A stretch of 47,561 nt of DNA. Origin: an uncultured SAR86 cluster bacterium (GTDB lineage Bacteria > Pseudomonadota > Gammaproteobacteria > Magnimaribacterales > D2472). Under the pieces are notes generated by a model, which was not told the DNA's origin, did no database searches, and saw only the letters and a program-made list of their open reading frames with translations. The translations under genes and the position numbers were made by a program. Below are positions 1,615 through 4,932 of this stretch, in pieces (the first letter of the stretch is position 1; every line of letters starts with the position of its first letter). Where the stretch lies: the NCBI GenBank assembly GCA_902517505.1, contig CABYCL010000006.1, positions 1 through 47,561 on the forward strand, in the 5' to 3' direction.

Positions 1615-2664
1615 ATGAACTATTCAACTGACAACACTAGAATTATAGATAGAAGAAAGGTTCCAGCTCCATATGAGCTTGTGAACAAGTACCCTATTAA
1701 TGATCAAATTTCTAAACTTGTTTATGGAACAAGAAATGAAATAAGCCAAATTCTTCATAATAAAGATGACCGAATTTTTGTTGTAGTCGGTCCATGTTCA
1801 ATACATGATCCTAACAGTGCTATTGAGTATGCAAAAAAACTTTCAGATGAAACCAAAAATTTTAGTGAGAATTTATTGGTCATTATGAGAGTATATTTTG
1901 AGAAGCCAAGAACAACAGTTGGCTGGAAAGGCTTAATAAATGATCCAGATATTAATGAGACTTTTAATATTGCTAAAGGAATTGAAATTGCAAGAAAATT
2001 ATTAATTCAAATAGCTGAGCTAGGTCTTCCGGCTGGTACAGAATTCTTAGATCCTATATCACCTCAATACGTTACAGATATAATTTCTTGGGGTGCAATC
2101 GGTGCAAGAACAGCTGAGAGTCAAATTCACAGAGAACTTGCCTCAGGTCTTTCATGTCCAATTGGAATAAAAAATGGAACTGACGGAGGCTTGAAGGCTG
2201 CAATAGATGGGATTCAAGCAGCAAATCATTCGCATGTTTTTCTTGGTGCAACAAAAGAAGCAGATATAGCAATGCTTAAAACTAGTGGAAATAATGATGC
2301 GCATATTATTCTAAGAGGCGGTAAAGTTCCAAATTATGATCAAGAATCAGTTGAAAATACTTTGACTGCTCTTAAAGAAGCAGAAGTCAATGAATCAATA
2401 ATGATTGATGCAAGTCATGGGAATAGTCAAAAGAAATTTAAGCAACAGATACCAGTTATAGAGTCAATTTGTAGCCAAATAGCTGAAGGTAATAACAATG
2501 TGAAGGGAGTTATGATTGAGAGCCATTTAAATGAAGGAAATCAAAAAATTAGTGAAAATTTAAAATATGGCCAAAGCATCACTGACGCATGTATGGGTTG
2601 GGAAGATACTATTTCTTGTCTTCAAAAATTGAATGATGCAATAAGTGTTAAAAGAGGTAAATAA
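1615..2664 (+). CDS. aroG: 3-deoxy-7-phosphoheptulonate synthase (class I DAHP synthase)
   Basis: 349 aa, the length of E. coli AroF/G/H. It joins phosphoenolpyruvate and erythrose-4-phosphate, the first step of the shikimate pathway. Visible motifs are VVVGPCSIHDP (about residues 58-68), RVYFEKPRTTVGWKGLINDP (about 95-114), GTEFLDPISPQY, and the metal-binding DASHGNSQKK. Which aromatic amino acid inhibits it cannot be read here, so the symbol names the family rather than the isozyme. It opens a long same-direction run; the DnaT-like gene follows after 5 nt. aroK and aroB of the same pathway lie elsewhere in this window. Confidence 0.93.
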   Translation: MNYSTDNTRIIDRRKVPAPYELVNKYPINDQISKLVYGTRNEISQILHNKDDRIFVVVGPCSIHDPNSAIEYAKKLSDETKNFSENLLVIMRVYFEKPRTTVGWKGLINDPDINETFNIAKGIEIARKLLIQIAELGLPAGTEFLDPISPQYVTDIISWGAIGARTAESQIHRELASGLSCPIGIKNGTDGGLKAAIDGIQAANHSHVFLGATKEADIAMLKTSGNNDAHIILRGGKVPNYDQESVENTLTALKEAEVNESIMIDASHGNSQKKFKQQIPVIESICSQIAEGNNNVKGVMIESHLNEGNQKISENLKYGQSITDACMGWEDTISCLQKLNDAISVKRGK

Positions 2665-2669
2665 CTGAA

Positions 2670-3467
2670 TTGAAAAGTAAAAATGATTTATCTTTCTCAG
2701 CTGAAGTGGCAGAAACACTCGGCTTGGAATGTGCAATCATATTAAGTCTATATAACAAAAATGAATTAGAAGATATCTCAACATACGATAATCTAGTCAA
2801 TTCTCTAAAAAAAAGTCTTCGATTTATTGATGTTGAAATAATTAAAGATTCAATAAATACATTATTAAAGTTTGAACTAATAGATATAAAAAAAATTAAT
2901 TACAAAAACGACTACAAAGTAAAATCTCCGAACAAAAATTCATCATCATTTTCGCTTACTAATGAATGGCAGCCTTCAGCAGAGGCTAATGAAATATTAG
3001 ATATGACTGACATTACAAAGGATTTTTACAAAACAAAATTAAAAGAATTTAAAATTTACTGGTATGAAAGAGGTCAAAAAAAGAATAATTGGAATTCAAC
3101 ATTTATTGACTTTATGAGACGAGAATGGACAAAAGAAATAAATTCAGAAAAAGTATTGCCACATATTATTGATGAAAACTGGTATCCTGATAATGATGTA
3201 TTTGATATTCTAAATCTTTCAGAAATAACAAAAGATTCTGCTTTAAAATACTTAAAAGAGTTTATCCTTTATTGGAAAGATAAAGGCACAGCTTTTACAA
3301 CATGGAATTCTAAATTCATTGATCATGTAAAAAGACGTCATATGATGAATGATAATATGGGGAGCAATGAAGAAAATAAAAAATATTCTGAACCAGGGAA
3401 ATATAAACAAGACTTCAAAACAAGAAAAAATGACAATACTTGGGCAAAAGAGATCAATCTCGAATAA
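2670..3467 (+). CDS. DnaT-like primosomal protein with two DnaT domains
   Basis: 265 aa from a TTG start with AGAGG 11 nt upstream, 5 nt after the DAHP synthase stop. Residues 1-80 look like a winged-helix domain. Two copies of the DnaT DNA-binding domain follow: residues 100-153 (W-QPS, LKEFKIYW, WNSTFIDFMRREW) and 171-224 (W-YPD, LKEFILYW, WNSKFIDHVKRRH). E. coli DnaT has one such domain and works in PriA-dependent replication restart. The next gene is a lambda P-like helicase loader, so this protein probably recruits or positions the loader at the origin or at stalled forks, as lambda O or DnaT would. The tail after residue 225 is polar and probably disordered. Confidence 0.75.
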   Translation: MKSKNDLSFSAEVAETLGLECAIILSLYNKNELEDISTYDNLVNSLKKSLRFIDVEIIKDSINTLLKFELIDIKKINYKNDYKVKSPNKNSSSFSLTNEWQPSAEANEILDMTDITKDFYKTKLKEFKIYWYERGQKKNNWNSTFIDFMRREWTKEINSEKVLPHIIDENWYPDNDVFDILNLSEITKDSALKYLKEFILYWKDKGTAFTTWNSKFIDHVKRRHMMNDNMGSNEENKKYSEPGKYKQDFKTRKNDNTWAKEINLE

Positions 3468-4011
3468 AGAAGATTTTATTAAATCAATTGATGCTCTTTT
3501 TCTAAAACTAGAGCTTGCGTATCATTATCAATTTTATAAAGTTTTCGGTACTGATGAGAAATTGAAAGAAGGTAAAAAACTTTGGGCTTTAAGCTTAAAG
3601 GATCAATCTCCTGAAGTGATTCTTCAAGCAGTAGAGAAAGTAATATCCACTCAGTCATTTCTTCCCACACTAACAGATCTTGTGAAATCATGCGGCGAAA
3701 TAAATAAAATAGATGGTTTTCCATCAGTTGAAGAAGCTTACATTGAGGCAAGAAAATCATATCAACCAAGAAAAGAATTTAATTGGTCAAATCCAATTGT
3801 ATATTTTGCTGGTAAAAAAATTGGTTGGAATGCATTGAATGAAAAAGATTCTAAAGAAAACTTCAGTACATTTAAAAAAATCTTTAATTCTTTAAAAATT
3901 GAGGCAATAGGTGGTAAAAAGTTTGAAATAAAAGATAATACTGATTCAAAAAATCGAAAACCACTAAATAAAGATTTATTTGAAGAATTAAGAAAAAAAC
4001 ATAAAGTTTAA
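3430..4011 (+). CDS. Lambda P-like replicative helicase loader
   Basis: 193 aa from the ATG at 3430, which overlaps the DnaT-like gene by 38 nt; the reading frame is open from an upstream ATG at 3349, but that would overlap by 119 nt. The central part (LFLKLELAYHYQFYKVF, then LWALSLKDQSPEVILQAVEK and FLPTLTDLVKSC) follows the pattern of the phage lambda replication protein P family found on gammaproteobacterial chromosomes. Family knowledge: lambda P binds DnaB and loads it onto DNA. No phage genes surround it, so it looks domesticated. Assignment is by pattern recognition at low identity; a profile search would settle it. Confidence 0.65.
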   Translation: MTILGQKRSISNKEDFIKSIDALFLKLELAYHYQFYKVFGTDEKLKEGKKLWALSLKDQSPEVILQAVEKVISTQSFLPTLTDLVKSCGEINKIDGFPSVEEAYIEARKSYQPRKEFNWSNPIVYFAGKKIGWNALNEKDSKENFSTFKKIFNSLKIEAIGGKKFEIKDNTDSKNRKPLNKDLFEELRKKHKV

Positions 4012-4053: not shown

Positions 4054-4932
4054 ATGAAGTTAAATAAAAATATAAGAATATCGATATATATACTAGTACC
4101 AATTATCCTTTGGATGATATCGGGACTTTTTAAGAATGATAATATTGAAATTATAAATCAAGATAATGACCTATTTAGTGTACAAACTTTACTAAGTTCA
4201 GCTTTAGAGTATCAACCTCTTATCAAACTTAAAGCAACTACAAAGTCAGAAGCAAGAATATATGTAAAAGCCAAAACTTCAGGGGAAGTAGTAAGAATTG
4301 GAGCGCTTCAAGGTGCATTCGTAGAAAAGGACACAATATTATGTAGTCTGGGTGTTGTTGAATTAAATAGAACTGAGGTCAAGGCACCATTTTCTGGCTA
4401 TATAGAACAAATAGTGAAACCAGGAAATTTTCTAGAGAGAGGACAAATATGTGCAACTATTATTCAATTAAGTCCAATATCATTTGTTGCAGGTGTTCCT
4501 GAATATGACATAAATAAGGTTCGTATAAATCAAAACGTTAATGTTGAGTTAGTTACTGGGCAAAAGATTACAGGCAAACTTACTTTTGTTTCAAAAAGTG
4601 CATCGCCAGATACTAGAACATTTAGCGTAGAATCTCAAATAGATAATTTGGATGGTGCGATTAAAGATGGTCTTACTGCAAATATGACTATAGAAATTGA
4701 TAAAGTTAAAGCTCATAAAATTTCACCTTCAATATTACTCTTAAATGATGAAGGTAAACTAGGTATAAGAATTATAAAGGAAGGAAACCTTGCTAAATTT
4801 GTCGAAATTATTATTTTAGAAGATTCAGAGGAAGGGTTATGGGTTACGGGTATTCCAGAAAAAGTTGAAATAATAATTCAAGGTCAAGGGTTTGTAGAAG
4901 ACGATCAAGAAGTTATCACTAATCGTATATGA
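4054..4932 (+). CDS. RND efflux periplasmic adaptor (membrane fusion protein)
   Basis: 292 aa with one N-terminal membrane anchor (about residues 9-26), then the lipoyl/barrel-sandwich halves (VYVKAKTSGEVVRIGALQGA-like region near residues 68-88 and APFSGYIEQIVKPGNFLERG near 110-129), and a beta-barrel region. It is short for the family and seems to lack most of the alpha-helical hairpin, because the two lipoyl halves are only about 20 residues apart. The adaptor links the inner-membrane pump to an outer-membrane channel. It overlaps the permease start by ATGA, so the two are coupled. No TolC-like channel gene is near. Substrate unknown. Confidence 0.85.
   Translation: MKLNKNIRISIYILVPIILWMISGLFKNDNIEIINQDNDLFSVQTLLSSALEYQPLIKLKATTKSEARIYVKAKTSGEVVRIGALQGAFVEKDTILCSLGVVELNRTEVKAPFSGYIEQIVKPGNFLERGQICATIIQLSPISFVAGVPEYDINKVRINQNVNVELVTGQKITGKLTFVSKSASPDTRTFSVESQIDNLDGAIKDGLTANMTIEIDKVKAHKISPSILLLNDEGKLGIRIIKEGNLAKFVEIIILEDSEEGLWVTGIPEKVEIIIQGQGFVEDDQEVITNRI

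Follow-up and report, generated by a model that had tools for sequence, protein, structure and literature searches.

A tandem-DnaT protein and a lambda P-like protein as the probable helicase-loading module of the SAR86 order Magnimaribacterales

Two overlapping genes of an uncultured SAR86 bacterium, found within the 47,561-nucleotide stretch of DNA analyzed here (the window), encode a tandem-DnaT protein and a lambda P-like protein. We read this pair as the chromosomal replicative-helicase loading module of the order, derived from a phage O-P module and replacing DciA/DnaC, with a C-terminal tail on DnaT substituting for the lambda P-like protein in two of the four families (f2 and f4); the probability of this reading is roughly 0.78. 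The preliminary description of the locus had already suggested a lambda P-type loader, domesticated and paired with a DnaT/lambda O-like protein; profiles, folds and distribution support this suggestion.

For bacteria that lack DnaC or DciA, Brezellec et al. reportedly proposed in 2017 that a domesticated lambda O/P pair, DopC/DopE, represents a third type of helicase loader, and we know of no direct test of that proposal. It is cited in PMC13326638. In both systems, bacteria that lack dciA and dnaC carry a chromosomal lambda P-like loader beside a partner resembling lambda O, though, compared by description only, the partner here carries two to three DnaT domains, and variants exist in which lambda P is short or missing and DnaT bears a tail. 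Judged in the same descriptive way, the DopC/DopE pattern (a chromosomal O/P-like pair with neither dciA nor dnaC/I) is found in our order sample, where the number of genomes, 121, compensates for the incompleteness of single assemblies. As far as we have checked, the spread through the order, the tandem-DnaT partner, its persistence without PriA and the switch of tail and motif are new.

The two proteins and their locus

The source assembly comprises 1.06 Mb in 28 contigs and is 83% complete; the window is contig 6. An aroG-type DAHP synthase gene (1615..2664, PF00793, E 1.2e-91) is the upstream neighbor of the module, and the tandem-DnaT ORF (2670..3467, 265 aa, TTG start) begins 5 nt past its end. 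The lambda P-like ORF (3430..4011, 193 aa) starts at the ATG at 3430 and overlaps dnaT by exactly 38 nt; a further in-frame ATG is present upstream at 3349. The downstream neighbor (4054..4932) encodes an HlyD-type membrane fusion protein (mfp; PF16576, E 2.5e-20), and all of these features lie on the plus strand. The divergent scpA/scpB genes are also located upstream, and the downstream region includes RND efflux operon/HlyD genes, an ispA-like ORF and a short ORF resembling the exonuclease VII small subunit; names of neighbors that have no profile match are our own reading of the sequence. The dN/dS values of ~0.1-0.2 for both dnaT and the lambda P-like gene indicate purifying selection and, therefore, real genes. 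The two ORFs, their overlap and their place beside aroG are just as first described, and the assignment of the pair to the chromosome agrees with its position between the core genes aroG and the RND operon and with its wide occurrence in the order.

The first protein had been described as a winged-helix-like part followed by two DnaT domains. Both domains are recovered by PF17948 with a combined score of 117.5 bits (cut-off 25), the first at 2949..3149 (62.7 bits) and the second at 3168..3341 (64.7 bits). The AF2 model (pLDDT 81) finds its best PDB matches among DnaT-ssDNA structures, with Z-scores of 9.0 to 6aeq and 8.9 to 4ou6 (DnaT ssDNA-binding domain) for the second domain. The N-terminal region (2670..2909, AF2 helices at residues 11-67) does resemble winged helices in fold comparison, but weakly (MotA, Z 6.0; DnaD N-domain, Z 4.3). 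At the C-terminus lies a 'D..W' motif (NDNTWAKEINLE, 3429..3464), recognized from pattern counts and considered a putative lambda P-docking peptide. There is no lambda O Pfam match for the DnaT protein, and it has zero matches among 50,697 phage records.

The protein shares the ssDNA-binding domain fold of E. coli/Salmonella DnaT (PF17948; 4ou6, 6aeq), but differs in its two to three tandem domains, its winged-helix-like N-terminus and its adjoining lambda P-like gene. Because the domains are in tandem, no DnaC is recognized and the gene is kept in PriA-less genera, we do not consider it a primosomal DnaT in the E. coli sense, that is, a single domain with PriA/PriB/DnaC. With phage lambda O it has in common the gene position before P, the winged-helix-type N-terminus and the C-terminal 'D..W' motif, whereas DnaT domains replace the lambda O middle region.

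The second protein, initially likened to lambda P, belongs to Phage_lambda_P: its profile score exceeds the curated cut-off, and both the fold and the C-terminal helix are matched. The PF06992 score of 27.8 bits (cut-off 26) is marginal for a single sequence, but all 30 orthologues tested match at E<=0.001 (best 5.8e-12), and phrog_109 ('P-like helicase loader') matches the protein at 9.9e-13. The family profile aligns in hhalign with phage lambda P residues 37-228 (E 3.6e-4). The closest structural match of the AF2 model (30 orthologues, pLDDT 79) is lambda P on E. coli DnaB (9oa1_Z, Foldseek E 7.1e-4); the two superimpose with a VIA Z of 10.7 over 188 residues, but with a high rmsd of 7.3. 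Locally, model residues 15-86, the N-terminal helical domain (3472..3687), align with SPP1 G39P (1no1_A) at Z 9.3 over 67 residues, with an rmsd of 1.7. Single-protein sequence searches of the PDB yield designed helical repeats or unrelated chains only, and the A1 profile has SPP1 G39P as its sole, weak PDB match. The closest phage proteins are P proteins of Pseudomonas phages, with ~26% identity.

At the C-terminus of the model, a linker leads to a helix at residues 181-190 (3910..4008, ending in ...KPLNKDLFEELRKKHKV), which hhalign pairs with the phage lambda P end 'RPLNRAQALAKIAEIKAKFGL'. That end of lambda P has been tentatively assigned to the DnaB linker helix in the DnaB-lambda P complex (PMC6391071), and by analogy the helix of the lambda P-like protein may be a DnaB-docking tail. 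In addition to the fold over most of the length and the C-terminal helix after a linker, phage lambda P (PF06992; 6bbm, 9oa1) shares the position of its gene directly after that of its partner, whereas the present protein has a shorter N-terminus, only ~16% identity and a host core locus. SPP1 G39P (1no1) has the N-terminal domain fold in common, but is a stand-alone phage loader/inhibitor.

These folds suggest a mechanism in which the tandem DnaT domains and the winged helix would bind ssDNA at the DnaA-opened origin or at a stalled fork. The C-terminus of lambda O is thought to recruit lambda P, and the D..W motif of DnaT may recruit the lambda P-like protein analogously. By homology to lambda P, the latter would bind DnaB, with its C-terminal helix on the linker-helix/docking-helix site, open the DnaB ring and place it on ssDNA. 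In f2 and f4, the tailed DnaT itself would contact DnaB. We infer that the pair is essential.

Loader genes and C-terminal tails in the order

The 121 genomes of the order, most of them incomplete assemblies, fall into four families, f1 to f4, which fits the published four-family layout of the SAR86 order Magnimaribacterales (PMC11582366). Judged by size and the aroG tree, f1 would correspond to D2472/Suzuki, f4 to CHAB-I-7, f2 to Magnimaribacteraceae and f3 to RedeBAC7D11. DciA (PF05258) is found in none of the 121, window genome included, at E<=0.01; the class sample, by contrast, has it in 221 of 274 genomes (E<=0.001). Neither is a DnaC/DnaI-type AAA+ loader of ~250 aa recognized among the listed PF01695 hits in the 121 genomes. 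PF01695 matches occur in 118 of them and were rejected as DnaC because they are the size of DnaA (~430-485 aa) or Lon (~800 aa), their products being assigned from size; others are short partial matches, and the best scores 39 bits. The earlier suggestion of a genome without DciA and DnaC is thus supported, and DnaB is present in the window genome, as it is in 111 of the 121 genomes and in 39/39 good ones. Cellvibrionales has been described as an order without both dciA and dnaC/I (PMC5109545).

A gene with a DnaT domain occurs in 110 of the 121 genomes. Lambda P is detected with a lineage-specific profile in 63 genomes, all of f1 or f3, and not in f2 or f4; PF06992 alone undercounts it (37 genomes). 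A two-gene module of lambda P-like and DnaT proteins, as originally pictured, therefore exists in f1 and f3 but not throughout the order, since f2 and f4 have no lambda P and a tailed DnaT. In the class sample, proteins with at least two DnaT domains are confined to DciA-less genomes (5/5: G000, G003, G004, G123 and G165; Fisher p 2.3e-4, uncorrected for shared ancestry), and three genomes with one DnaT domain (G196, G219 and G386) have DciA. One of the five, AqS3 (G165), shows the same aroG-dnaT-lambda P order and is the sole match in a single-protein scan of genome contigs. We also observe an f4 genome (G012, single contig, 93% complete) with no detected DnaT, lambda P or DciA; the 60 kb around the position predicted from synteny hold no aroG, dnaT or mfp homologue.

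In the f2 and f4 loci examined the gene order is aroG-dnaT-mfp, without lambda P. Here DnaT ends in '...LKKLKEKHQI' or '...LREKYKI', much like the f1 lambda P end '...LFEELRKKHKV'. The ends were scored with a 12-residue matrix built from the lambda P tails of f1, with a threshold set at the 99th percentile among 537 control C-termini. This threshold is exceeded by 38/38 DnaT ends of these families (29/29 f2, 9/9 f4) and by 0/51 of the others (0/26 f1, 0/25 f3). Only 7/25 f3 lambda P tails exceed it, so the f1-trained matrix under-reads divergent tails. The D..W pattern, '[DNE].{1,2}W', has the reverse distribution: it is present at the DnaT end in 51/51 f1/f3 proteins and 0/38 f2/f4 proteins, compared with 7/537 control C-termini, and it recurs at the ends of phage lambda O, of the G123 and G165 proteins and of the phage O-like protein in G386. 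Since the patterns were chosen after viewing the sequences, the counts should be taken as a description of a regularity, not as independent tests of it. A separate observation concerns genus g4 of f1 (L159, L160 and L161), which has a 151-aa lambda P consisting of the N-terminal domain and the tail, with the middle domain missing; this shortened protein is an intermediate.

We read these distributions as a move of the putative helicase-docking tail from the loader to its DnaT partner. With the lambda P gene lost and a lambda P-like tail at its end, the f2/f4 DnaT probably contacts DnaB directly, and the lambda P body is not indispensable everywhere, as these two families manage without it. A less likely explanation, though one that deserves attention, is that the shared tail binds a different common partner, such as SSB, DnaA or a protease, or that it is a basic helix that arose by convergence. 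The tail is indeed short and basic, its proposed docking to DnaB is read from sequence, and the f1, f2 and f4 tails on their own give no convincing match to the phage lambda P end. Their link to phage lambda P runs via f3 and the f1-f3 and profile alignments. However, an f3 lambda P tail, when aligned without gaps to the phage lambda P end, outscores 1000/1000 shuffles, hhalign sets the tail on the C-terminal end of lambda P, which has been placed, tentatively, at the DnaB linker helix, and of the two proteins one and only one bears the tail. The DnaB linker/docking-helix sequences themselves vary between families and offer no simple co-variation test.

PriA loss and the question of restart

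DnaT is a replication restart protein in E. coli, and the pair could function in restart only, forming with PriA a DnaT-type primosome that uses the lambda P-like protein in place of DnaC; an undetected loader would then serve the origin. The preliminary description had proposed looking for priA, and PriA is present in the window genome, in keeping with such a role; it scores over the cut-off (TIGR00595) in 103 of the 121 genomes of the order. It is missing, however, from two related f3 genera, g10 and g17, where TIGR00595 finds no PriA in 13/13 sampled genomes, including the single-contig, 97% complete G003, and 11 of these 13 keep both DnaT and lambda P. Furthermore, the order yielded no other loader of a known type. 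We therefore consider a restart-only function improbable, and the retention of the pair in g10 and g17 without PriA favors a role that is probably at the origin and not in restart alone.

The PriA-less genomes are G003, G035, G039, G047, G055, G059, G071, G083, G099, G102, G108, G111 and G117. They do contain TIGR00595 matches at E ~1e-16, which were rejected as PriA: these cover only the first quarter of the profile and lie in ORFs of ~970-1000 aa that are Mfd-like by size. Loss of the restart helicase PriA by a bacterial lineage is unusual.

Origin of the module and its implications

In the aroG tree, f4 is sister to f1 (100/99), f3 branches next and f2 lies outside. In the published tree, Suzuki pairs with CHAB-I-7, and Magnimaribacteraceae pairs with RedeBAC7D11 (PMC11582366). 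As f2 and f4 are not sisters in either tree, the switch probably happened twice. Two losses of lambda P are more economical than two gains, because f1 and f3 share the site and because G123 and G165 have lambda P. The tail could have reached DnaT twice, for example if the lambda P body was deleted in frame; possibly, a tail on DnaT was already ancestral. We give about even odds to the full scenario, in which the loader was lost in f2 and f4 and the DnaB-docking helix moved to the tandem-DnaT protein twice independently, leaving a loader of ssDNA-binding domains and a helicase-docking tail, with no AAA+ domain, DciA domain or lambda P body. Two independent moves would point to the tail as the core to which a lambda P-type loader can be reduced.

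In the loci examined, aroG lies upstream of the module in f1, f2, f3, f4 and AqS3, and mfp lies directly downstream in f1, f2, f3 and f4; what we say of synteny across the order refers to these loci, drawn from all four families. That the pair is a resident prophage or remnant with no role in the host chromosome is scarcely credible: lambda P is a phage protein, and the nearest matches are the Pseudomonas phage proteins, but the aroG-RND site is constant, no phage genes were seen within the window, both genes are under purifying selection, and a number of lambda P-like genes that adjoin O genes of phage type sit in DciA-positive genomes instead.

Other arrangements of these domains were seen in the class. 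Phage-type modules in which an O-like gene with a DnaT domain directly precedes a lambda P-like gene occur in G219 (L211, 1402-2220) and G386 (L210, 832-2374), and modules of this type are the likely source of the chromosomal pair. A 397-aa ORF in G280 (L087 670-1860 / L105 4335-5525) appears to be a fusion of winged-helix-like repeats, a lambda P N-terminal domain and a tail-like end; that genome has no DciA hit. In G222 (L088, 249-2067) and G338 (L089, 294-2064), a phrog_270 O-like initiator gene overlaps a gene for a 263-aa lambda P-like protein. These pairs include no DnaT domain and neither genome has a DciA hit; the genes are possibly a separate domestication.

The chromosomal pair extends the DopC/DopE proposal to an apparently dominant ocean lineage, in which natural losses of PriA separate the loader proposal from PriA-dependent restart. 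It also offers two short peptides for testing, the presumed lambda P-docking end of DnaT and the presumed DnaB-docking tail. Should the tail indeed bind DnaB, these bacteria would illustrate the extent to which a helicase loader can be pared down.
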